Assembly (NCBI GenBank): GCA_947259375.1
Contig: CAMYLZ010000030.1
Coordinates: 1-48,003, forward strand
Direction of reading: 5' to 3'
DNA: 48,003 bases
From: an uncultured Parvularculaceae bacterium
GTDB taxonomy: Bacteria; Pseudomonadota; Alphaproteobacteria; Caulobacterales; Parvularculaceae
The position numbers and the translations under genes were made by a program. Below, piece after piece: positions 38,067 to 48,003 of the stretch. The notes beneath the pieces are model-generated. The model was given only the letters and a program-made list of their open reading frames with translations. It had not been told where the DNA came from and made no database searches. Each line of letters opens with the position of its first letter. The stretch's first letter is position 1.

Positions 38067-38424
38067 GCAGACGGGTTTTCAGAACCGTTTCGCCGCACAT
38101 AAAAAACGCGAAATATGCAGGAAAGGGGGGATGCGGAGGGAGGACGGTTCATTACACGGCAAAAAGTCGGGAAAATAATTAGTGTGCGAACATAACGCGA
38201 CTTGACACATTCTTTTGTCAACGCTTGAAGTGCGCGCTAGGCCTAGCCGTTAACCAGAAATCGAGCCTTTAAAGGGGTTTTATGCCCTGCGTCGTGCGCA
38301 TCGCCCCGGGCCCGCTCCTGCACATGCACGCAACTTTCCCCAGTTTTCCTCCGTAAAAACTGACATCGGCGCAGATCGTCCGGCAGGACGCGCCTGTCCG
38401 ACAGTATAGATCAAAACGGAGTTA
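38067..38424. promoter_or_regulatory. Upstream region of the DUF4331 gene
   Basis: A 358-base gap without genes. Holds an inverted repeat TTGACA-N8-TGTCAA at 38202-38221, and an ECF-type promoter candidate at 38330-38357 listed separately. The segment between them is GC-rich and shows no other element I can name. Confidence 0.55.
38330..38357 (+). promoter_or_regulatory. ECF-type promoter for the DUF4331 gene: GCAACT-N16-CGTAAA
   Basis: A -35-like GCAACT (38330-38335) and a -10-like CGTAAA (38352-38357) separated by exactly 16 bases. The predicted start point near 38363 leaves a leader of about 62 bases before the ATG, with GGAG at 38416. The same architecture occurs before four other units of this island. 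Confidence 0.6.
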
Positions 38425-39909
38425 ATGATGAATACGAAGACGCTACTGACCGCCGCGGCGGTCGGCCTGGCGGCGCTCGCGCCGTTCGCGGCGCACGCCT
38501 CCAGCCATATGGATGCGCCGTTAATTACGTTCGACGATGCGGCGAACACGACGGACGTTTATGCTTTCCTGAGCGAGGACGCCAAGGGCCAGCTTTACCT
38601 CACGACAGCGCTTTCCGTATTCCCGTTCGAGGAGCCGGGGATTGGTCCGAACGCCTATCGCTTTGACGATCGTGTGCGCTATTCAATCCATGTGGCGCTT
38701 GGCGACAATGCTTCGAAAGGCGAGGCGGATCTTACCTATAATTTCGATTTCTCAACGCAATATGACAACCAGAACACCATTTTGCAGGCCTTCCAGGGCG
38801 TCGTTGCGCCCGGCGGCGAGAACCAGAACCTGCAACAGACCTATCGCGTCACCAAGGTCGACCGCACGCAGAAACGTTTGCGCAAGCGCTTGACGGTGCT
38901 CGGCAAAGGCAAGCGTGACGGGTTGATCGTGCCGCCTAACAATCAGGGATTGTTGACGCCGCTTTACAACCAGAACGATAATGGCGACATGCCAGCGAAG
39001 CCGGGCGTTGCGAGCGTTGAAAAGCTTGATCCGTATACGAAGTCCGGCATCGCGAAGCTGGATCGCGGTTACATGACGTTTGCCGGTCAGCGTGATGACG
39101 GCTTTTACGCCGATATACAGTCGATTTTTGACTTGGACCTAAGCTTCGGCGCCGCCACCGGCACGCAGACCAAACCGTTCGACAGCCAGGGCGGTTTCAA
39201 CCTTCATACGATCGTCTTGAATATTCCCATTGAAGAGTTGAAAGGCGCGAAAATCGCCGGCGTTTACGCGACGACCAGCCGCCGGCCCGGTTTTGACGAG
39301 GAGACCAAGGAGTTTGAAGAGTTTTCGCCGCAATTTGGTTTCTTCAAACAGGTCGGCCGTCAGGGCAACCCGCTGTTTGTTGAAGCGCTGCTTCCGATCA
39401 AAGTCAAAGATGGCTACAATCAGGGCTCGCCGACAGACGATTTCAAATTCCAGGAGATCGCCGCTAATCCGCAACTGGCCGGTTTTGGTCCAGGACCGCT
39501 TCTGCCGGGGCTGCTGGAGCAGATCTATATTCCGGACCTTATCAAGATTGACTTGACGACAGGGCCGGTGCGCCAGCCGGGCCAGGACGGGTTTAACCGC
39601 CTTGGCGTGTTTGGCGGCGATATCGTTAAAAGCGAAGCGCAAGACCCCTTCGGCAATGGCGGGTTCATCCCAGGCGGTTGGCCGAATGGTCGCCGGTTTG
39701 GCGATGATGTTGTCGACATTGCTGTGATCGCGCTTGGCCTGACCGGTATTGTTCCGGGGCCGGAGGATGACATCACGTCAATCTTTGCGGATGTTAATGT
39801 CGATGGCGTCGACCAGAATGACATCACCTACAATCAGGTGTTTCCATATGCTGCGACGCCGTTGAACGGCCGCAATCACGGACACCATTCGGAAAGCAAC
39901 GCTGAGTAA
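38425..39909 (+). CDS. Secreted DUF4331-family protein
   Basis: A 494-residue exported protein of unknown function. A signal peptide (LLTAAAVGLAALAPFAAHA) precedes SSHMDAPLITFDDAANTTDVYAFLS, the family's characteristic start (usually SSHREAP...DNTDVYAF). It ends with a Ca-binding-like DVNVDGVDQNDITY stretch and a His-rich tail (NGRNHGHHSESNAE). GGAG lies before a tandem ATGATG, either of which may be used. In many bacteria this family is found with ECF sigma factors, TPR and TonB genes, as here. Its own ECF-type promoter and a terminator after the stop make it a monocistronic unit with some read-through to the TPR gene. Confidence 0.88.
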   Translation: MMNTKTLLTAAAVGLAALAPFAAHASSHMDAPLITFDDAANTTDVYAFLSEDAKGQLYLTTALSVFPFEEPGIGPNAYRFDDRVRYSIHVALGDNASKGEADLTYNFDFSTQYDNQNTILQAFQGVVAPGGENQNLQQTYRVTKVDRTQKRLRKRLTVLGKGKRDGLIVPPNNQGLLTPLYNQNDNGDMPAKPGVASVEKLDPYTKSGIAKLDRGYMTFAGQRDDGFYADIQSIFDLDLSFGAATGTQTKPFDSQGGFNLHTIVLNIPIEELKGAKIAGVYATTSRRPGFDEETKEFEEFSPQFGFFKQVGRQGNPLFVEALLPIKVKDGYNQGSPTDDFKFQEIAANPQLAGFGPGPLLPGLLEQIYIPDLIKIDLTTGPVRQPGQDGFNRLGVFGGDIVKSEAQDPFGNGGFIPGGWPNGRRFGDDVVDIAVIALGLTGIVPGPEDDITSIFADVNVDGVDQNDITYNQVFPYAATPLNGRNHGHHSESNAE

Positions 39910-39924
39910 CCGGCGGGTTTATGC

Positions 39925-39960
39925 GGCGGGCGGGATGTTTCCCGTCCGCCGATTTTCTTT
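39925..39960 (+). terminator. Terminator between DUF4331 and TPR genes
   Basis: Ten-pair GC-rich stem GGCGGGCGGG (39925-39934) / CCCGTCCGCC (39941-39950) with one G-T pair and a 6-base loop, followed by GATTTTCTTTT. It lies only 16 bases upstream of the TPR gene's ATG, so the TPR gene probably depends on read-through, giving a graded expression step-down. Confidence 0.8.
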
Positions 39961-39975
39961 TGAGAAAGTTTCACC

Positions 39976-41181
39976 ATGAATATTACGCTTCCGCGCTTCG
40001 CCTGCCGCAGTTGGCGCATGATGGGCATCATTGCGATGTCGGCGGTATTTCTTGTCGGTCCCGCAGCGGCCCATCCGCGCGGCCATGATGATGCGCAAAA
40101 GGCGCCGGATGCTGGGCGTCAATTGACCCTTGCTGAGAGCGAGGCGCTGTTGCTCCTTGAAGAAGCGTTTGAGAAAAATCGGGGAGACGCGGGCGCCGCA
40201 GCGGCATTTGCCCGTTTGGCTGCGTCCCAAGCGCGCCGGCTTGGCGATACTGACTTGCTGCGCCGCGCGGATGTGAGTCTGGCGGCCTGGGAAGATGATG
40301 CGGCTGCGCCGACGGAGATTTTGATTGTCCGCGCGAATATCCGCCAGATCGATCATCGGTTCGAAGACGCGCTGATCGATCTCGGGACGGTGATAGAGCG
40401 CGATGCGGACAATCCGCAAGCGCGGTTGTCGCGGGCGTTCGTTCTGGCGACGATGGGCGAAGCGGGGCGCGCCAAAGCGGATTGCATGGCGCTGACGCCG
40501 CGCGTTTCAATCTATGTGCGTGAGACCTGCAATGCGCGCATCGCCAGCCTGACGGGCGGACTTGATGACGCGGCAAAGCGCCTGGAAGCGCTTTTGGGGG
40601 CGGTTCGCGCCTCATCGAAAACCGAGCTGTCATTCGCGTTGTCCGTAGCTGCAGAAATCGCCGAGCGGCGCGGGGACGAGGAGAAGGCTGAGAACTATTA
40701 CAAAATTCTCCACACTGCCGACACGAAATCGGTTTATGCGCGTGCGGCCTATGCGGATTTTCTCATTACCAACGGCCGGGCCGCTGAAGCGCGTAAAGTG
40801 ATTGGCAAGACGCCCGAGACCGAGGCGTTGTTGCTTCTCAGTGCGCTCGCCGGGAAGGACGATGACACCACCGTCGGCGCGCAATCGGCGAAAGTGCTGA
40901 AAACCCGTCTCGCGGCGGACCGGCTCGAAGGCGATTACGCCCATGCGCGCGAATATGCGCGCTTCGGTCTCGATTATCTGGGCGACGCCGAACTGGCGTT
41001 GACCATGGCGCAAGAAAACTGGCGCGTGCAAAAAGAGCCGATAGATGCACGCATTCTTGTCCGCGCAGCAAAAGCGGCGAATATCGCGGACCCGATTTCC
41101 GAAGTGATGCGTTGGGCGGCGCGAAACGCGATTGAAGATGCGCTGCTTGAAGCGATGCTTGCCGGATCAACGGTTGAGTAG
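39976..41181 (+). CDS. Exported TPR-repeat protein
   Basis: A 401-residue protein with an N-terminal signal-like segment (GIIAMSAVFLVGPAAAHPRG) and a largely alpha-helical body with tetratricopeptide-like repeats (for example IDHRFEDALIDLGTVIERDADNPQARLSRAF and ERRGDEEKAENYYKILHTADTKSVYARAAYADFLITNG). Probably a periplasmic interaction scaffold working with the DUF4331 protein upstream, as the two families often travel together. GAGAAAG precedes the ATG. No enzymatic motif is visible. Confidence 0.82.
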   Translation: MNITLPRFACRSWRMMGIIAMSAVFLVGPAAAHPRGHDDAQKAPDAGRQLTLAESEALLLLEEAFEKNRGDAGAAAAFARLAASQARRLGDTDLLRRADVSLAAWEDDAAAPTEILIVRANIRQIDHRFEDALIDLGTVIERDADNPQARLSRAFVLATMGEAGRAKADCMALTPRVSIYVRETCNARIASLTGGLDDAAKRLEALLGAVRASSKTELSFALSVAAEIAERRGDEEKAENYYKILHTADTKSVYARAAYADFLITNGRAAEARKVIGKTPETEALLLLSALAGKDDDTTVGAQSAKVLKTRLAADRLEGDYAHAREYARFGLDYLGDAELALTMAQENWRVQKEPIDARILVRAAKAANIADPISEVMRWAARNAIEDALLEAMLAGSTVE

Positions 41182-41303
41182 GGCGCGCGACAAGAAATGG
41201 CCGGCCTCACGTCTCTGTGATGAAATAAACCTTCCGCCCCGTGAACCTTTTCCGAAGCGCAGCGTATCCACCTGCGATTTTCGAAACGGAGAATGGGGCT
41301 AAC

Positions 41304-41876
41304 GTGAACGCGTCAGACGAGACGATTATACTGGAAGGGCTTTTGCAGCGTGTGGGAGCCCGTGATCGAAAAGCGTTTGCGTCGCTTTACGAACAAACCT
41401 CGTCGCGGCTTTACGGCGTGCTCATGCGTATCCTGAGCGATGAGCGCGATGCTTCCGATGTGTTGCAGGAAGTCTATGTTTCCATCTGGAACCGGGCGGG
41501 CCAGTTCGATCCGGCGAAAGGAAAGCCGCTTGCATGGATGGGCGTCATCACCCGCAACGCCGCGATCGATGCGATCCGCCGACGCCGGCCCGGTCACGTC
41601 AGCGATGAGAATTGCCATGAGCTGGAAGATGGCGGGCGTTCGCCGCTTGAACAGCTTCAGCAAACGATGCTCCGCCGGGCCGTCCAGCGCGATCTTGAGA
41701 CGTTGCCGGCCAAGCAGCGCGATGCGCTGCGCATGTACTATCTCGAAGAACGTTCGCTGAATGAAGTGGCCGAAATTATGAACGCGCCCGTCAATACGGC
41801 GAAGTCCTGGGTGCGGCGCGGCATTGCCAACCTTCAGGGCAAGAACAAGGATCGTTCGATCAGCGACTATCTTTAA
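41304..41876 (+). CDS. ECF sigma factor 1 (SigK/RpoE-like)
   Basis: A 190-residue ECF-type sigma factor. Region 2 reads FASLYEQTSSRLYGVLMRILSDERDASDVLQEVYVSIWNRAGQFDP with PLAWMGVITRNAAIDAIRRRR; region 4 reads LETLPAKQRDALRMYYLEERSLNEVAEIMNAPVNTAKSWVRRGIANLQG. I prefer the GTG at 41304, preceded by a purine-rich GGAGAATGGGG; a GTG at 41241 would add residues with no family match. No anti-sigma gene follows directly: 9 bases later the convergent TonB receptor ends. The cupin-type anti-sigma gene at 46643 may be its distant partner. Its promoter resembles the shared motif only weakly. Confidence 0.9.
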   Translation: MNASDETIILEGLLQRVGARDRKAFASLYEQTSSRLYGVLMRILSDERDASDVLQEVYVSIWNRAGQFDPAKGKPLAWMGVITRNAAIDAIRRRRPGHVSDENCHELEDGGRSPLEQLQQTMLRRAVQRDLETLPAKQRDALRMYYLEERSLNEVAEIMNAPVNTAKSWVRRGIANLQGKNKDRSISDYL

Positions 41877-41885
41877 CGGTTACGC

Positions 41886-43940
41886 CTAAAACGCCGCAGT
41901 GAGCGATACGCGCAATTGCCTCGGTTCGACCGGGTGAAAATGGATATCCGCCACGGGCGCCGTTTCGCCAGCCAGCCGTGACTCAAAAAAGTAGGTGATG
42001 TCGGCGTCTTTGGAATCGAAAAGGTTGAGAATATCGACGCCGAGCCGCAAATGGTCGAACTGGTAATAGGTTCCGAGATTGATGACCGTGGTGGGTTCTG
42101 AAAACACGGTTCCGTCTTCGATCAACGGCGCCTTACCAAAACGGCGCAAGCGCAAGCTGGTCGTTAGGTTGCGCAAAGGCTCCAGGGTCATGCCGGCGCT
42201 GAAGACATTTTCGACCGCCTGCGGAATGCGGTTCTCGCCGGACGGCGCGGTCTTGAATCGCGCTTGCGTCAAAGCGGCGGATGCATCGAGCGCCAGCCAG
42301 TCCGCCGGCCGGTAAAAGCCGTTGAATTCGACACCAAAACGGCGCGTGGCACCATTCGGTTCGGTCGTGCCGGCGTCGCCGACAAAGACAAGCTCGCCGT
42401 CAAGTTCCAGCCAGAAGCCGACGACAGACGCCTTTAGCCGCGGCGCCTCAAAACGCGCCCCGACCTCCGCTCCTTCGGCCTTGACGAGAATATCGACAGC
42501 GTCGACTGGCTCAAGGGTGCGCGGATCAACGCGCGTAACCGCGCCGCGTATGTCGTTGGAATGAAACCCCTGTCCGTAATTCGCGTAAAACTCCAGGCTG
42601 TCGGTCGCGCGCCAAGCGAGCGCCGCGGTAGGCGTCAGGAGGAAATCATCGGCGCGCCCGGAATTAGCGTCCAACTGGGCGTCGACGCGGCCCCGAAAAT
42701 AATCGCCGCGCAAGCCAATAGATGCGCGCAGGCGGTCCGTCGCTGCAAACTCGGCGTCGGTGAAAAAGCCGAGGCTGAACTCGCTTACTTCATCGCTGCG
42801 GATCGTGTTAAAGCGTTCGCGGCTGTCCGTATTAAATAATCCGAGCCCGAATATGTCATCGTAACGAGCATCAGCGCCGATGCGCATTTCCACGGGGCGG
42901 GATAGAAATTCGGCATCCCAACGTTTCGTCAAGGCGCCGCCCAGCGCGAAACGCTCGTCGCGTTGTTCAAACTCGTCGCCGGCGAGGTCATTGTCGGCAA
43001 AATAGGTGAAGTTCGAAAACAGCGCAAAGTCGTAATAAAGCGCATAGGCTGAGACGGTGAGGTTTTCGCTTTCAAATCCGCCATTGAGCGCGATGCGCGT
43101 CGTCTCGCCGCCAAGGTCCGGATCGATGAAACCGAGCCGCGAGATAAGCCCCTGCTCGATGGCCCGTCGCGGGACCTGGTCCGTCGAACGCCAGCGCGCA
43201 TCATAAGCGCTCAAGGAAAGCCGCCACTCACCGCCGCCGGCGTTTTGCGTCAGCTTGGCGAAGGCGTTGAATTTCTCAAGCTCTTCATCAAGTAGGTAAG
43301 CGCCATCGGCGAAGACTGTTTCCGCAGCAATCAGAAAATCGCCATTGCCCGTATCGAAAGAGCCGGCGACGAGACCGCGCCGGTACCCGTTCTCGCCGAT
43401 TGTCGCTTGTGCAATTGAATGGTCGAGGCGGTCATATGTGCGAAAGGATGCTGTTGCGGCCGGTGAAAAATCACCCACATCTGCGTAATATGGGCCCTTG
43501 CGATAATCGACGCGCTCGATGATTTCAGGGATGATGAAATTGAGGTCGAGATAGCCCTGCCCATGGCCATGGGTTCTGAAATTGATTGGCGCGCCGTCGA
43601 TAAACGCAGCAAAGTCAGTGCCGTGATCAAGGTTGAAACCACGAAGGAAATACTGGTTCGCCTTGCCGGAGCCTGAATGCTGCGTGGCGACGGCGCCGGG
43701 AATGACTTCGACCAGCTCTCCGACCCGCGATAAAGGCCGGTTTTCAAAATCTGAATAGCCGACCACCCCTTCGGAACCCGCGCGAGCACTGCCGATCAGC
43801 TCGAAAGCGCGGCCGAAAACAACGATTTCGTCCTCGACCGGGCCTTCCGCGCGGGCGTCGCCGGCCTCAAGCGCAATGGCGAGGGCGAGCAGGGAAACGG
43901 AGAGAGTTTTGTGAAAAGGCGATTTGCAGCGCGCAGCCAT
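41886..43940 (-). CDS. TonB-dependent receptor of the ECF island
   Basis: About 684 residues. A signal peptide (LSVSLLALAIALEAGDARA) precedes a plug with VGELVEVIPGAVATQHSGSGKANQYFLRGFNLDHG and a His/Gly-rich HGHGQGYLDLNF, then a 22-strand-type barrel ending in RQLRVSLTAAF with the C-terminal Phe needed for assembly. The substrate is unknown. The start is uncertain: ATGs at 43940 and 43961 are both plausible, and no strong ribosome-binding site is seen. A promoter candidate on the minus strand (44071-44096) lies inside the 5' end of the divergent sigma gene. It shares the island's promoter motif, tying the receptor to the ECF regulon. Confidence 0.85.
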   Translation of the reverse strand: MAARCKSPFHKTLSVSLLALAIALEAGDARAEGPVEDEIVVFGRAFELIGSARAGSEGVVGYSDFENRPLSRVGELVEVIPGAVATQHSGSGKANQYFLRGFNLDHGTDFAAFIDGAPINFRTHGHGQGYLDLNFIIPEIIERVDYRKGPYYADVGDFSPAATASFRTYDRLDHSIAQATIGENGYRRGLVAGSFDTGNGDFLIAAETVFADGAYLLDEELEKFNAFAKLTQNAGGGEWRLSLSAYDARWRSTDQVPRRAIEQGLISRLGFIDPDLGGETTRIALNGGFESENLTVSAYALYYDFALFSNFTYFADNDLAGDEFEQRDERFALGGALTKRWDAEFLSRPVEMRIGADARYDDIFGLGLFNTDSRERFNTIRSDEVSEFSLGFFTDAEFAATDRLRASIGLRGDYFRGRVDAQLDANSGRADDFLLTPTAALAWRATDSLEFYANYGQGFHSNDIRGAVTRVDPRTLEPVDAVDILVKAEGAEVGARFEAPRLKASVVGFWLELDGELVFVGDAGTTEPNGATRRFGVEFNGFYRPADWLALDASAALTQARFKTAPSGENRIPQAVENVFSAGMTLEPLRNLTTSLRLRRFGKAPLIEDGTVFSEPTTVINLGTYYQFDHLRLGVDILNLFDSKDADITYFFESRLAGETAPVADIHFHPVEPRQLRVSLTAAF

Positions 43941-43977
43941 GTGATACACTCGAGACGACATTTTTTTAGACGTGCGG

Positions 43978-44005
43978 GCACCCCCGCGGCTGCTCCGTGC
44001 GTATA
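43978..44005 (+). promoter_or_regulatory. ECF-type promoter for sigma 2/ChrR: GCACCC-N16-CGTATA
   Basis: GCACCC (43978-43983), 16 bases, CGTATA (44000-44005). The predicted start point near 44012 lies 25 bases before the ATG at 44036, which supports that start over the GTG at 43997. An ECF factor activating its own operon is the usual arrangement. Confidence 0.52.
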
Positions 44006-44035
44006 GGCAACTGGAGAGGTGAAAAGGGGTTCGGG

Positions 44036-44644
44036 ATGTGCCTGTCGCATAATTCAATCAACGATCTGAATACGCGAGGGGCGGAGCGGGAGTTGCATAG
44101 AGATGTTGAGGAAAGAACGGTTTTTCTGGCGCAGGTGAAAACGCGCCGGTGCAAGGCATCATATGAGCGCTTATATCAATATTATGCGCCGCGCATCTGT
44201 GCTTTTCTGCGCCAAAAAGGCGCGGATGAGCGTATCTCTCAGGAAATTATGCAGGATGTGATGACTCGCGTGTGGCACAAGGCTGATCAGTTCGATGAGA
44301 AAAAATCGTCAGCGTCGGCATGGATTTTCGCCATCGCCCGTAATCGCTTTATCGACGTCATCCGTCAGTCGAAACGCAGCGAGGTGGACCCGAATGATCC
44401 GCTTCTCGCGCATCGCGAAGAGCCCGCGCCGGATTCGAGATTGCAACAGGGCGAGCGGATCAGCGCGCTCAAAGCCGCGATTTCAGAATTGCCTGGCGAC
44501 CAGGCGGAAGTCCTGCAACTCGTTTATTTGAGCGGGATGACGCAGCAGACAGCCGCGGATCGGTTGTCGATCCCGTTGAATACTGTGAAGTCGCGCCTGC
44601 GGCTGGCGCTTGAAAAACTCCGCCGTCGAATGGAGTATGTCTGA
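44036..44644 (+). CDS. ECF sigma factor 2 (RpoE of the RpoE-ChrR type)
   Basis: A 202-residue ECF sigma factor. Region 2: YERLYQYYAPRICAFLRQKGADERISQEIMQDVMTRVWHKADQFD and ASAWIFAIARNRFIDVIR. Region 4: AISELPGDQAEVLQLVYLSGMTQQTAADRLSIPLNTVKSRLRLALEKLRRRM. It is followed immediately by a ChrR anti-sigma gene (stop TGA then ATG, no gap), the arrangement that in Rhodobacter responds to singlet oxygen and organic peroxides. Start ATG at 44036 has AAAAGGGG upstream. It is divergent from the TonB receptor gene, with promoters interleaved in each other's 5' region. Confidence 0.93.
   Translation: MCLSHNSINDLNTRGAERELHRDVEERTVFLAQVKTRRCKASYERLYQYYAPRICAFLRQKGADERISQEIMQDVMTRVWHKADQFDEKKSSASAWIFAIARNRFIDVIRQSKRSEVDPNDPLLAHREEPAPDSRLQQGERISALKAAISELPGDQAEVLQLVYLSGMTQQTAADRLSIPLNTVKSRLRLALEKLRRRMEYV
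44071..44096 (-). promoter_or_regulatory. ECF-type promoter for the TonB receptor: GCAACT-N16-CGTA
   Basis: On the minus strand GCAACT (44096-44091), 16 bases, then CGTATT (its first four bases 44074-44071). It is located inside the coding start of ECF sigma 2 and points toward the receptor gene, leaving a leader of about 105-125 bases. Same -35, spacing and CGTA core as the DUF4331 promoter. Confidence 0.55.
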
Positions 44645-45313
44645 ATGGCGCAATATCATCCCGATGATGAATGGCTGACCGGCTATGCCAGCGGCGCGGT
44701 GAACGAGCAGACATCGGTCCTGGTGGCGACCCACCTGACCTATTGTCCGCAATGCCGAGAGGAAGTCGCGCGGCAGGAAGAAATCGCCGGTGCGATGTTA
44801 GATGCGCTCGAACCGGAAGATGCGGCCGCGGAAATCTGCGCGCGCGAGATTGCGGCGCCGGCCTCACGCAGCGTTGGCGCAAAGGGCGAGGCCGCGCCTC
44901 GCGGATCGTTCAACGCCATCGCGCCGGCCCCGCTTATCCAATATGTCTATGAGAAAACCGGGACGACGGACATCGACCGGCTTCCATGGTCGTTTTACGG
45001 GCCAGGCATCGAGCGCGCGATTCTCGTGGAAGACAAAGAAGGCGCGATCGTCCGGCTCTTTCGCGCGCAGCCTGACGCAAAGTTTCCTGATCATGAGCAT
45101 GGTTCAGATGAGCTGACGGTCGTGCTGACCGGCGCCTATAGCGATCACACCGGGCGCTATGCCGTCGGCGACGTGCAATGTGCGCCCAAAGAAATCTCGC
45201 ATCGGCCTGTGGTGGAGAAAGGCGAGATATGCATCGCGCTCGTCGTTTCTGAAAAACCGGCGGTTGCGAAAAGCTTCGCCGTTCGCATGGCACAGCGCAT
45301 TCTTGGCAGATAG
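44645..45313 (+). CDS. chrR: ChrR-type zinc anti-sigma factor with cupin domain
   Basis: A 222-residue cytoplasmic anti-sigma factor holding the preceding sigma inactive. The N-terminal zinc-binding domain has His5, His30, Cys34 and Cys37 (THLTYCPQC), the same positions, shifted by one, as the ligands in Rhodobacter ChrR. The C-terminal cupin has His150/His152 (PDHEHGSDE), Glu156 and His186, matching the second metal site needed for singlet-oxygen response. Its ATG directly follows the sigma stop codon, so one mRNA makes both in ratio. No terminator with a T-run follows on this strand. Confidence 0.94.
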   Translation: MAQYHPDDEWLTGYASGAVNEQTSVLVATHLTYCPQCREEVARQEEIAGAMLDALEPEDAAAEICAREIAAPASRSVGAKGEAAPRGSFNAIAPAPLIQYVYEKTGTTDIDRLPWSFYGPGIERAILVEDKEGAIVRLFRAQPDAKFPDHEHGSDELTVVLTGAYSDHTGRYAVGDVQCAPKEISHRPVVEKGEICIALVVSEKPAVAKSFAVRMAQRILGR

Positions 45314-45384
45314 CCTCGATCAGCATGCAGGATTCGCGCGCTGCCGATTGTCGGCAATCGGAGCGGTTGTTCAGTGGTGCTCGC

Positions 45385-45430
45385 AAAAAAATAGCCCCGG
45401 CGTTGGCGGAGGGCCTTCAACGCCGGGGCT
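45385..45430 (-). terminator. Terminator of the ferritin-like/cytochrome c unit
   Basis: Perfect 13-bp stem: minus strand AGCCCCGGCGTTG (45430-45418) pairs with CAACGCCGGGGCT (45405-45393) around a 12-base loop, followed by ATTTTTTT (plus-strand A-run at 45385-45391). It lies 18 bases after the cytochrome c stop and faces the convergent chrR gene. Confidence 0.92.
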
Positions 45431-45448
45431 GGGACTCGCAGCCGGGGG

Positions 45449-45844
45449 TCAATTCGACTGCGATTTCAAATATTCGATGATGGTCGCGCGCTCTTCAGCG
45501 TTGGAAAGGCGATAACCCATTTTTTGCCCGGGAACGACGGCTTCGGGATTGGCAAGCCAACTATCAAGGCGCGCGTCATCCCAGACGAAATTCGAATTTC
45601 GCAGCGCGTCGGAGTAATTATAGTCGGAAACGCTGCCGGCTTTGCGGCCGACCACGCCGAGATGGCGCGGGCCGATCCGGTTCGTCTCGATAGAATGGCA
45701 GGCTCCGCAACGGCGTTGATAGAGGTTTTCCGCGTCCAGGTCGGCTGCGGCGGCTGGCGAAAGAAGGCTTATTGCGGCTGAGCACAGCGCAGCGAACGCA
45801 GCGGTTCTCGCAAGTCGCGATTGATGAAGAATATTCGTGTGCAT
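45449..45844 (-). CDS. Exported class I cytochrome c
   Basis: A 131-residue small periplasmic electron carrier. Signal peptide about 1-34 (FAALCSAAISLLSPAAAADL), heme-binding CGACH at 46-50, and axial Met109 in GQKMGYRL. The spacing and GPRHLGVVGRKAGSV segment are those of cytochrome c2/c550-type proteins. It lies 84 bases after the ferritin-like gene on the same strand. A stem (CCCCCG/CGGGGG) lies in that gap but has no T-run, so co-transcription from the ECF-type promoter upstream of the ferritin-like gene is likely. In Rhodobacter, cytochrome c2 is a target of RpoE, which fits. Confidence 0.9.
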   Translation of the reverse strand: MHTNILHQSRLARTAAFAALCSAAISLLSPAAAADLDAENLYQRRCGACHSIETNRIGPRHLGVVGRKAGSVSDYNYSDALRNSNFVWDDARLDSWLANPEAVVPGQKMGYRLSNAEERATIIEYLKSQSN

Positions 45845-45928
45845 AATAACCTGTTCAGTGCGGCCCCCGAAAGTAGGTTCCGGGGGAGGACTTCCGGAGG
45901 CCGCGTCGCTACGACGAATGACGGGAGG

Positions 45929-46537
45929 TCAGGCGCCGAAGGAAAGCGCTTTTTTAGGCAGCATGCCGCCAAGCGCAGATGTGAGCGCAGTCCAATGCAT
46001 GGTTTCGTCGGCCGCGAGCCGCGCAGAAACCTGGGCGAGGTCGTGGCTGTTGAAGGACGGAATGACGCCAAGATAGGCGTTGGCTGCGCCAAGCTCGAGG
46101 CGGGCGGCTAGCTGAACAACATCCGCTTGCGATTTCAGCGACGACGCGTTGAGCGCTTTGGCGTAGTCGGAAAGCTTTTCCGCTTCCGCGGCCTCGCCGC
46201 CCATGGCGCGAATGGCGTCAATCAGCGCGTCCCGGTGCTCTTTGTGATGCGACTGGAACTGAACCGCGACATTGAGCACGTCTTTCGAAAGCAAGCCGCT
46301 TTCCGCGCCGAGCTGGTATGCGCCGATGGCTTCGTGTTCAAGGCCGAGCGCGACATTGAGGATCGCAACATCCTGTGCGGCGTCGCCCGACGAGGCATAG
46401 GCGCGTGTCATCGCAGCGCCGGCGCCCGAAAGCGCGACGATTGCCGAGGCGGACAGCGCCGTCTTGGCGCCGCCTGCAAGAAAAGAACGCCGAGAGGGCG
46501 ACTGTTTACTGGTGGTCAGCGTGGAAGATCCGGTCAT
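45929..46537 (-). CDS. Tat-exported ferritin-like domain protein
   Basis: A 202-residue four-helix-bundle protein. The twin-arginine signal SRRSFLAGG (residues 15-23) and a hydrophobic stretch predict export folded with its metal. Helix motifs include GLEHEAIGAYQLG, FQSHHKEHRDALIDAIRAMGG and RLAADETMHWTALTSALGG, with Glu and His residues positioned for a di-iron site. Function is unknown; it may be a peroxide- or metal-handling stress protein. It has its own ECF-type promoter (46598-46625). Confidence 0.88.
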   Translation of the reverse strand: MTGSSTLTTSKQSPSRRSFLAGGAKTALSASAIVALSGAGAAMTRAYASSGDAAQDVAILNVALGLEHEAIGAYQLGAESGLLSKDVLNVAVQFQSHHKEHRDALIDAIRAMGGEAAEAEKLSDYAKALNASSLKSQADVVQLAARLELGAANAYLGVIPSFNSHDLAQVSARLAADETMHWTALTSALGGMLPKKALSFGA

Positions 46538-46597
46538 TTAAAATCCTTTCGCCGCCTCGCCACGGGCGGTGCGGGCTTGATGGTGTTTGCGATAGGA

Positions 46598-46625
46598 TTT
46601 ACGCGGATAGCCGTCGCGAGGTTGC
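46598..46625 (-). promoter_or_regulatory. ECF-type promoter for the ferritin-like gene: GCAACC-N16-CGTAAA
   Basis: On the minus strand GCAACC (46625-46620), exactly 16 bases, CGTAAA (46603-46598). The predicted start near 46592 leaves a leader of about 55 bases before the ATG at 46537, with AAAGGATTT as ribosome-binding site. It matches the DUF4331 promoter at 11 of 12 positions. Confidence 0.62.
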
Positions 46626-46642
46626 ACTAATGCGATGCGACC

Positions 46643-47185
46643 TTAAACCGATCCTCTGATAAAAAGCCGGCAGCCGCTTTCAGATCGGCAGCACGCGTGG
46701 CCGGAGTTGGCTGGCGCGGCATGGTAATCGCCGGCGGTGAGCCGCAAATCGCCAATGATGAAATCGCCCGAAAGGACAAGACAATCTTCCGGGCCGGGAT
46801 GATCATGTTCAGGCAGGCTGGCGCCCGGATCAAGCTCAAGAAGAAAGGCTTCTACGCCATCGGCGTCATCATGGAACAAATGCTTTCGGCGGACCCCCGG
46901 GGAGATCACGATCCAGCGACCTTCCTTGTCGCGCACGGTCGTCGAGGCGCGCGAACCGGAGGCGGTTTGGCGATTCAGGCGTTCTTCGATTGCCGCAAAC
47001 AGGTCGGCAGGCGGCGTTTCGCCTTCATTCTGATCCAACAGGGGCGCGAAACGGTTTGTCCACCAGGCGACCTGTTCGGCAAAGGCCTCGTCCTCGCTCA
47101 TGCGCGTTTCCGCGCGCTGCCGGTCGGCGTCGGAAAGGATGTCAAGGGCGTAATCCGAGGCAAGGATTTCAAGCGCGCTGGTCAT
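46643..47185 (-). CDS. Anti-sigma factor with RskA-like N-terminus and ChrR-like cupin
   Basis: A 180-residue protein. Residues 1-50 (LEILASDYALDILSDADRQRAETRMSEDEAFAEQVAWW) look like the zinc-free N-terminal domain of RskA/SigK-type anti-sigma factors; none of the ChrR HxxxCxxC ligands is present. Residues 95-180 are a ChrR-like cupin with His127/His129 and Glu133 (PEHDHPGPED), then His155/His163. This is a different combination from the ChrR gene nearby. No sigma gene is adjacent; ECF sigma 1 at 41304 lacks a partner and is the natural candidate. No ribosome-binding site is obvious, and a 23-codon frame (47253-47182) ends overlapping the ATG by four bases, so coupling is possible. Confidence 0.78.
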   Translation of the reverse strand: MTSALEILASDYALDILSDADRQRAETRMSEDEAFAEQVAWWTNRFAPLLDQNEGETPPADLFAAIEERLNRQTASGSRASTTVRDKEGRWIVISPGVRRKHLFHDDADGVEAFLLELDPGASLPEHDHPGPEDCLVLSGDFIIGDLRLTAGDYHAAPANSGHACCRSESGCRLFIRGSV

Positions 47186-47312
47186 GGCCGCGGTCCGGAC
47201 CTGCCGCTTGAGCTGCCGCTATTTATGGCGCGCGTTATATGGTTGTTTCGCATTGTCTCACGTCCTGCCGCTCGTACCCGGCGCAAAGCCGGATTTTTTG
47301 TTGTTTCATGAA

Positions 47313-47340
47313 TATACGCGCCGCGCCGGGCAAAAGTTTC
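47313..47340 (-). promoter_or_regulatory. ECF-type promoter for the second anti-sigma gene: GAAACT-N16-CGTATA
   Basis: On the minus strand GAAACT (47340-47335), 16 bases, CGTATA (47318-47313). The predicted start near 47306 leaves a leader of about 120 bases before the ATG at 47185. Same spacing and CGTA core as the other island promoters. Confidence 0.52.
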
Positions 47341-47458: not shown

Positions 47459-48003
47459 CTAGAACGTGATCTGTTCCATATCTGTGAAGTTGAGGGTGGC
47501 GCCGTCGGCAAATGTAATCACGCCGTCTGCGTCATCGCTGAAGACGATGCCGTCTTCGGTTTCTGAAACAATCGTTCCCTGCGTCAGTTCAACGGTCCAG
47601 TCGACTCCATATTCACCGAGCGGTGTTTCCCCATCGGCAAGCTGGATGGTGTCTGTCCAGTTGCCCGCGCCGCCGTCGATGCGATCGGCGCCGTCGCCCA
47701 TTTCATATACGAAGACATCATCGCCATCGCCGCCATAAAGGCGGTCATTGCCGCCTCCGCCGGTGATGACGTCATCGCCCGCGTCGCCATATAGGCGATC
47801 GTTGCCGTCCCCACCTTGGAGTTGGTCGTCATCCTCTCCGCCGCGGAGATAATCATTACCGTCGCCGCCTTTGATGACATCATCGCCAGCGCCGCCATAT
47901 TGCAGGTCGTTGCCGTCGCCGCCGATCAGCGTATCGTCGCCGCCATTGCCAATTTGCGTCACGCGCTCGGTCATGCCGGTGGCGTCAAGATGGTCATCGC
48001 CGC
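47459..48003 (-). CDS. RTX-type calcium-binding repeat protein (5' end outside the window)
   Basis: The open frame runs off the right edge, so only the C-terminal 181 residues are visible. They contain about eight glycine/aspartate nonapeptides (GGDGNDLQYGGAGDD, GGDGNDYLRGGEDDD, GGDGNDRLYGDAGDD, GGGGNDRLYGGDGDD) forming a Ca2+-bound beta-roll, then a C-terminal block (TDTIQLADGETPLGEYG ... INFTD-type ending TLNFTDMEQITF) that serves as the type I secretion signal in such proteins. The ATG at 47974 is internal, since upstream codons continue the repeat (GGDDHLDATG). The protein's activity is unknown because the functional N-terminus is not in the window. Confidence 0.9.
   Translation of the reverse strand, partial: GDDHLDATGMTERVTQIGNGGDDTLIGGDGNDLQYGGAGDDVIKGGDGNDYLRGGEDDDQLQGGDGNDRLYGDAGDDVITGGGGNDRLYGGDGDDVFVYEMGDGADRIDGGAGNWTDTIQLADGETPLGEYGVDWTVELTQGTIVSETEDGIVFSDDADGVITFADGATLNFTDMEQITF

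Follow-up and report, generated by a model that had tools for sequence, protein, structure and literature searches.

A central question raised by the window, the 48,003-nucleotide stretch that forms the whole of contig C30 in the 3,198,438-base genome (G000) of an uncultured Parvularculaceae bacterium, is whether one promoter-like motif joins a DUF4331 gene, a ferritin-like gene and two sigma factors of the extracytoplasmic function (ECF) type, sig1 and sig2, into a single circuit, and which sigma factor reads it. The original prediction placed five promoters of one architecture before DUF4331, a TonB-dependent receptor, sig2 with its anti-sigma gene chrR, a ferritin-like/cytochrome c pair and a second anti-sigma gene (asf2), leaving the reader undecided. 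All five strings are present where predicted, each with a gap of exactly 16 bases (N16), confirming the identical spacing in 5/5 cases. Conservation gives good support to the motif as a shared predicted promoter at three of the five genes (DUF4331, sig2/ChrR and ferritin-like/cytochrome c), the TonB site is weak, and the second anti-sigma site is unsupported. The regulon claim should be narrowed to three genes and widened to a sigma/cupin anti-sigma/DUF4331 module. We consider it fairly probable that the locus encodes a compact self-regulating ECF sigma circuit read by both the sig2 and the SigK-like sigma lineages, with DUF4331 and a ferritin-like (iron-storage-like) protein as probable members of a single small circuit for stress response.

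The evidence carrying this reading comes from related genomes. Several of the nearest relatives of the window genome are Marinicaulis sp. (Parvularculaceae; the Marinicaulis group below), and four relatives (G011, G013, G019, G026) keep the cluster with DUF4331, sig1, sig2, ChrR, cytochrome c, the ferritin-like gene and asf2, a tetratricopeptide repeat (TPR) gene following DUF4331 in three of them; a fifth locus (L035, titled Gammaproteobacteria) retains most of the cluster. Comparing the same intergenic regions, a check proposed with the original prediction, revealed conservation at all three retained predicted promoters. GCAHCY-N16-CGTA lies 5' of sig2 in 5/5 relatives examined (0.003 expected from dinucleotide shuffles) and in the ferritin-like slot of 8/8 genomes examined (0.005 expected), while DUF4331 is preceded by this form in 4 and by the looser G(C/G)AHCY-N16-CGTW in 9 of the 14 genomes examined (0.05 expected), with fewer independent lineages than these counts imply, G019, G026 and G009 being closely related. 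Gene starts were set by hand, and the 14 DUF4331 regions were chosen by the authors from 80 loci plus relatives, with G009 excluded despite its loose site (L064). The spacing is fixed as well: in a scan of gaps from 8 to 24 bases with widened letters, after removal of rows below per-gene identity floors, DUF4331 matched at N16 in 9/80 loci and in at most 3 at any other gap, and the ferritin-like gene (6/6) and sig2 (5/5) matched at N16 with at most 1 elsewhere. The motif-bearing part of the window contains the following features.

38330..38357, plus strand: site 1, GCAACT-N16-CGTAAA, predicted promoter of DUF4331 (perhaps also of the TPR gene and sig1), 67 bases before the ATG.
38425..39909, plus strand: DUF4331 protein, 494 amino acids (PF14224, E 8.5e-68, 229.9 bits against a cut-off of 27).
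39924..39951, plus strand: terminator-like hairpin directly 3' of DUF4331, 12 pairs with a T tail.
39976..41181, plus strand: TPR protein, 401 amino acids (PF14559).
41304..41876, plus strand: sig1, ECF sigma factor (Sigma70_r2/r4; nearest solved chain SigK 4nqw, E 1.6e-22).
41886..43961, minus strand: TonB-dependent receptor (PF00593, PF07715).
43978..44005, plus strand: site 4, GCACCC-N16-CGTATA, predicted sig2-chrR promoter, 30 bases before the ATG at 44036.
44036..44644, plus strand: sig2, ECF11-type sigma factor (best solved match Rhodobacter RpoE).
44069..44096, minus strand: site 3, GCAACT-N16-CGTATT, candidate TonB receptor promoter within sig2 codons.
44645..45313, plus strand: ChrR anti-sigma factor with H5, H30, C34, C37 and a cupin domain (TIGR02451, 140 bits against 124.5; 2z2s, E 5.8e-31).
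45449..45844, minus strand: cytochrome c (PF00034, E 9.9e-6).
45929..46537, minus strand: ferritin-like protein, Ferritin_2 (PF13668, E 2.8e-22).
46598..46625, minus strand: site 2, GCAACC-N16-CGTAAA, predicted promoter of the ferritin-like/cytochrome c pair.
46643..47185, minus strand: asf2, anti-sigma-like, a ChrR-type cupin (PF12973, E 6e-16) joined to a helical domain that lacks the ChrR zinc motif.
47313..47340, minus strand: site 5, GAAACT-N16-CGTATA, unsupported as an asf2 promoter.

The motif is the mark of a local circuit and not of a large regulon, since strict matches concentrate in the window and the broad form is not enriched. The strict form, GCAACY-N16-CGTAWW, has 5 matches in the genome, 3 of them inside this 8-kb stretch, compared with 2 genome-wide for a reversed-pattern control. 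The genome-wide scan suggested with the original prediction gave no excess of the broad form, GCANCY-N16-CGTAWN, over the 3.2-Mb genome (20 matches, 4 in the window, versus 24 in the control), and a genome-wide regulon was rejected on this ground. These patterns were derived from the sites themselves, making genome enrichment partly circular and no proof, so that conservation in relatives is the better test. Outside the cluster, one strict match (C26:34054) runs antisense within a coding frame; the other (GCAACT-N16-CGTAAT, C25:195383-195410, L171) stands 43 bases ahead of the ATG of an esterase-like gene, possibly a further candidate target. De novo counts of 4+4 dyads outside the Marinicaulis group were dominated by GC-rich pairs.

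The two remaining sites are weaker. The string proposed as the TonB promoter (site 3) does exist, with a chance of occurrence of 0.004 in 200 bases; it falls within the coding sequence of sig2, beginning 33 bases from the ATG of that gene, and its only equivalent among the relatives examined is in G013, where no TonB gene adjoins. Beyond the Marinicaulis group, a TonB gene near DUF4331 in a metagenome-assembled genome (MAG) of Lysobacterales (L044; 45% identity) carries GCATCC-N16-CGTATG upstream, the only one of 11 TonB genes tested there with ATCY-N16-CGTW (0.15 expected); from this ATCY test, four genes, a single DUF4331, asf2, TonB and sigma gene, had been removed because their upstream DNA was shorter than 150 bases. 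Site 5 is not conserved in relatives, its chance of occurrence being 0.011 within the 273-base gap. In G013, G019, G026, G009 and L035, asf2 instead lies directly 3' of a third ECF gene, sig3, which precedes it at L020:10274-10819 and also in L022, L023, L035 and L169; whether the two overlap depends on the start codon picked. Site-5-like strings in G013, G019 and G026 fall within sig3 codons. No ortholog of sig3 was found elsewhere in the window genome, where the best matches are sig1 and sig2, and tblastn gave no convincing trace of a sig3 remnant beneath site 5, an origin that was accordingly rejected. Site 5 is unsupported for these reasons. In the window, where sig3 is missing, the partner of asf2 may be sig1. 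Past site 5, positions 47459-48001 encode an RTX calcium-binding repeat protein whose frame runs past the contig end.

Identifying the reader of the motif requires placing the sigma factors. In a tree of 54 sigma proteins, built after removing sigma matches shorter than 400 bases and proteins outside 120-260 amino acids and having no row from C25, sig2 falls within a 12-row clade of sigma factors encoded beside ChrR (support 100/99), whereas sig1, sig3 and the sigma factors of L037, L040 and L041 form one other clade (95/86). Against the SigK model PRK09646, sig1 scores 126.9 bits, under the curated cut-off of 226. By its sequence, sig2 is assigned to the RpoE/ChrR (ECF11) lineage, and the adjacent ChrR aligns with the solved ChrR at H5, H30, C34 and C37. 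We take these four residues to be zinc ligands. The first (-35) box of the predicted sig2 promoter reads GCACCC in the window and GCATCY in 5/5 relatives rather than TGATCC, and the CGTA box and 16-base gap of the canonical RpoE-ChrR regulon are present at the window sites. Accordingly, sig2 is an ECF11 protein whose own predicted promoter departs from the published first box.

The window genome also encodes a second ECF11-ChrR pair (G000:C17:2168-5774, L163), with TGATCC-N16-CGTA upstream of its sigma gene; in the divergent direction, GCATCC-N16-CGTATA precedes an amine oxidase/DUF1365 operon, possibly reflecting cross-talk with the window circuit. Among seven standard ChrR loci, a sigma gene was found at six, and of these six, three (G000, G061, G063) carry TGATCC-N15/16-CGTA upstream on the sigma strand; it was not found in that position in G011, G013 or G065. 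In G011:C63 (L177) and G013:C1 (L178), TGATCC-N16-CGTA stands beside a standard ECF11-ChrR pair on the strand facing away from sigma.

That sig2-ChrR alone reads the motif, with sig1 a bystander reading something else, appears unlikely. The motif does stand at sig2's own promoter in 5/5 relatives, and it shares its CGTA box and 16-base gap with the ECF11 motif TGATCC-N16-CGTA given in PMC5507510 and PMC4336711. Furthermore, in the Marinicaulis group the motif is missing immediately before sig1. Yet the alphaproteobacterial genomes G062, G064 and G066 carry GCATCC-N16-CGTA before DUF4331 (G066 keeps the motif before the ferritin-like gene too) with no ChrR above the family cut-off, a count limited by the nature of these genomes, which are MAGs and may be incomplete; motif-bearing DUF4331 genes in such genomes count against sig2 as sole reader. 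The local sigma factors in L037 (G062) and L041 (G066) are of the sig1/sig3 type, and no sigma gene was seen on the L039 contig (G064); G065 has the motif too, but with ChrR elsewhere in the genome. Outside the Marinicaulis group, ATCY-N16-CGTW lies upstream of 8/32 sigma genes near DUF4331, where shuffles predict 0.33 and other gaps average 0.54 with a maximum of 3, the eight occurring in records titled Acidobacteria, Verrucomicrobia (including Brevifollis), Planctomycetota, Gammaproteobacteria and Deltaproteobacteria. The reader left undecided in the original prediction is thus narrowed without being reduced to one protein: the motif stands before sig2 itself, yet it also precedes DUF4331 where no ChrR exceeds the cut-off.

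Slightly less plausible still is an arrangement with one variant per sigma factor, in which sig1 would read GCA(A/C)C-N16-CGTT (DUF4331), sig2 GCATC-N16-CGTA (itself) and a third sigma GCAAC-N16-CGTA (ferritin-like). Within the Marinicaulis group the variant does track the gene, with GCAAC before the ferritin-like gene, GCATC before sig2 and CGTT before DUF4331, but the window deviates through its CGTA at DUF4331 and GCACC at sig2, it retains the ferritin-like site without having sig3, and independent lineages are few. The sites are very improbable as promoters of the general stress sigma EcfG, whose alphaproteobacterial promoter is GGAAC-N16/17-CGTT: G003 has GGAACT-N16-CGTAAC before DUF4331 with no match to a window sigma within 20 kb, and 4/9 DUF4331 sites end in CGTT, yet G003 is the only motif-bearing region with G as its second base, all others having C there, and the strict sites cluster at the window rather than spreading genome-wide. 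Chance matches in GC-rich DNA, for which the unenriched broad pattern, site 5 and most distant matches would speak, are scarcely credible given the shuffle controls and the preferred gap, which already disfavor them for 3/5 sites.

A circuit read by both lineages also has to be weighed against its own difficulties. In addition to the absent genome-wide excess of the broad pattern, 5/14 DUF4331 upstream regions lack even the loose motif, and the letters were widened (T at position 4, CGTT) only after the relatives' upstream DNA had been inspected; GCAACY-N16-CGTA alone accounts for 6/8 ferritin-like slots, 0/5 sig2 and 0/14 DUF4331 regions. Outside the Marinicaulis group, ATCY-N16-CGTW precedes DUF4331 in only 6/77 cases, against 0.74 expected and, at other gaps, a mean of 1.04 with a maximum of 3. 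Within that group, the motif is missing immediately before sig1, and sig3 has no upstream motif that fits the -35 box. Because the first box varies between genes at its fourth base, reading might be divided among the sigma factors. Finally, the hairpin after DUF4331 may reduce or stop read-through into the TPR gene and sig1; such terminator-like sites number 9 in the region, against a mean of 13.7 in shuffles.

The proposed circuit would operate through two ECF sigma factors (three in relatives) held inactive by two anti-sigma proteins, ChrR and asf2, each carrying a metal-binding cupin sensor. A signal would free sigma, and RNA polymerase would then start at GCA(A/C/T)C(C/T)-N16-CGT(A/T), giving as output DUF4331 and, via read-through, the TPR protein and sig1, the sig2-chrR pair (feedback), the ferritin-like protein together with an accompanying electron carrier, and perhaps the TonB receptor. 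The motif, with its conservation and constant spacing, can be read directly from the sequences; we infer that the motif is a promoter, that both sig2 and a SigK-like sigma read it, and that the signal is redox or metal in nature. Two sigma lineages sharing one promoter class is the best reading, and the circuit draws its support from the relatives' footprints with shuffle controls, the N16 peak, the local strict matches, the TGATCC promoter at the other pair, the 8/32 sigma genes with ATCY-N16-CGTW outside the Marinicaulis group, the motif-bearing genes of G066 and a gene swap in L035. In that swap (L035:5768-6871), genes for DUF4142 and cupredoxin-like proteins (both copper-domain matches slightly under their cut-offs) replace the ferritin-like/cytochrome c pair behind the same motif (GCAACT-N16-CGTAAT), which may reflect selection for an output that combines a ferritin-like protein and an electron carrier. 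The photo-oxidative or peroxide response named in the original prediction is possible by analogy, the label coming only from the resemblance to ChrR. The standard singlet-oxygen regulon more likely belongs to the pair on C17, since that pair keeps the published TGATCC-N16-CGTA promoter.

The second predicted sensor differs from ChrR in build. The domain search of asf2 returned only Cupin_7 and Cupin_2, with no RskA_C; in its cupin, H127, E133 and H163 are invariant and H129 nearly so. The predicted model (mean predicted local distance difference test score, pLDDT, 84.5; predicted template modeling score, pTM, 0.53) has ChrR 2q1z as its best Foldseek match (E 3.2e-11), and the template modeling score of 0.47 indicates that domain placement differs from that of ChrR.

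DUF4331 is found in many phyla, and no paper in the open-licence library searched mentions it by this name or as PF14224. Its model (mean pLDDT 78.2) matched no solved structure at E <= 0.001, and only two weak sequence matches, at E about 0.7, were obtained; deriving a function from the fold was accordingly rejected. Neighbor clustering within 9 kb of DUF4331 in 81 loci (80 genome loci and the window), with families named by Pfam on representatives, gave TPR-like proteins in 43, HupE/UreJ-like in 32, ECF sigma factors in 25, cupin anti-sigma factors in 16 and TonB receptors in 12. Outside the Marinicaulis group, 30 loci offer 20 kb of DNA or more, and of these 18 have an ECF sigma and 12 a cupin anti-sigma close to DUF4331; for comparison, one ECF query finds 7 ECF matches in the 3.2 Mb of the window genome. 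The HupE/UreJ-like membrane protein (for example L037:12790-13905 and L041:12835-13968) was not found in the cluster of the window. Another DUF4331 gene lies far from the first (G000:C12:141055-142488; L010, L027), and no gene matching the sigma or anti-sigma genes of the window neighbors it within 17.5 kb. A second ferritin-like/cytochrome c pair lies directly behind another ECF sigma gene (G000:C25:23366-25184, L162), and similar ECF-ferritin arrangements occur in G022, G027 and G058.

On this evidence DUF4331 is among the predicted outputs of a sigma circuit whose sensors would be cupin anti-sigma factors, and the family thereby gains concrete predicted promoters, partners and inducers for testing. 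A more specific account, which we put forward tentatively, is that the ECF11 (sig2) and SigK-like (sig1/sig3) factors, each with its own cupin anti-sigma, converged on one promoter class, sig2 having left TGATCC for the GCATCY already in use by the SigK-like circuit. If true, two sensors would feed a single output, and the core of the circuit (an ECF sigma, a cupin anti-sigma and DUF4331, frequently accompanied by TPR, HupE/UreJ-like and TonB genes) would be a module that is widespread across phyla and apparently undescribed. It may represent a natural case of promoter specificity shift between paralogous sigma factors in one genome.

Among known systems, SigK-RskA (ECF18/ECF19) resembles the window in that SigK is the nearest solved chain to sig1 and in that the first helices of the asf2 helical domain look similar, by eye, to the AS19-1 consensus of PMC7406223; it differs in that asf2 carries a cupin domain without an RskA_C match and sig1 scores under the SigK cut-off. 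For PSPTO_1043/ChrR of Pseudomonas syringae, PMC5507510 reports TGATCC-N16-CGTA from chromatin immunoprecipitation sequencing, with apparent autoregulation, one listed site starting gcATCC and one lying upstream of a TonB-dependent receptor that showed no significant change in expression; its 137 putative binding sites across the genome differ from the local cluster at the window. The closest match to sig2 and ChrR is the solved RpoE-ChrR pair (ECF11) of Rhodobacter sphaeroides, which shares the CGTA box, the 16-base gap and a sigma gene preceding chrR in one operon. The window departs from it in a first box of GCAHCY instead of TGATCC, in predicted targets (DUF4331, ferritin-like/cytochrome c and perhaps TonB) that differ from the RpoE-ChrR core regulon, and in the coexistence of a separate TGATCC system in the same genome.

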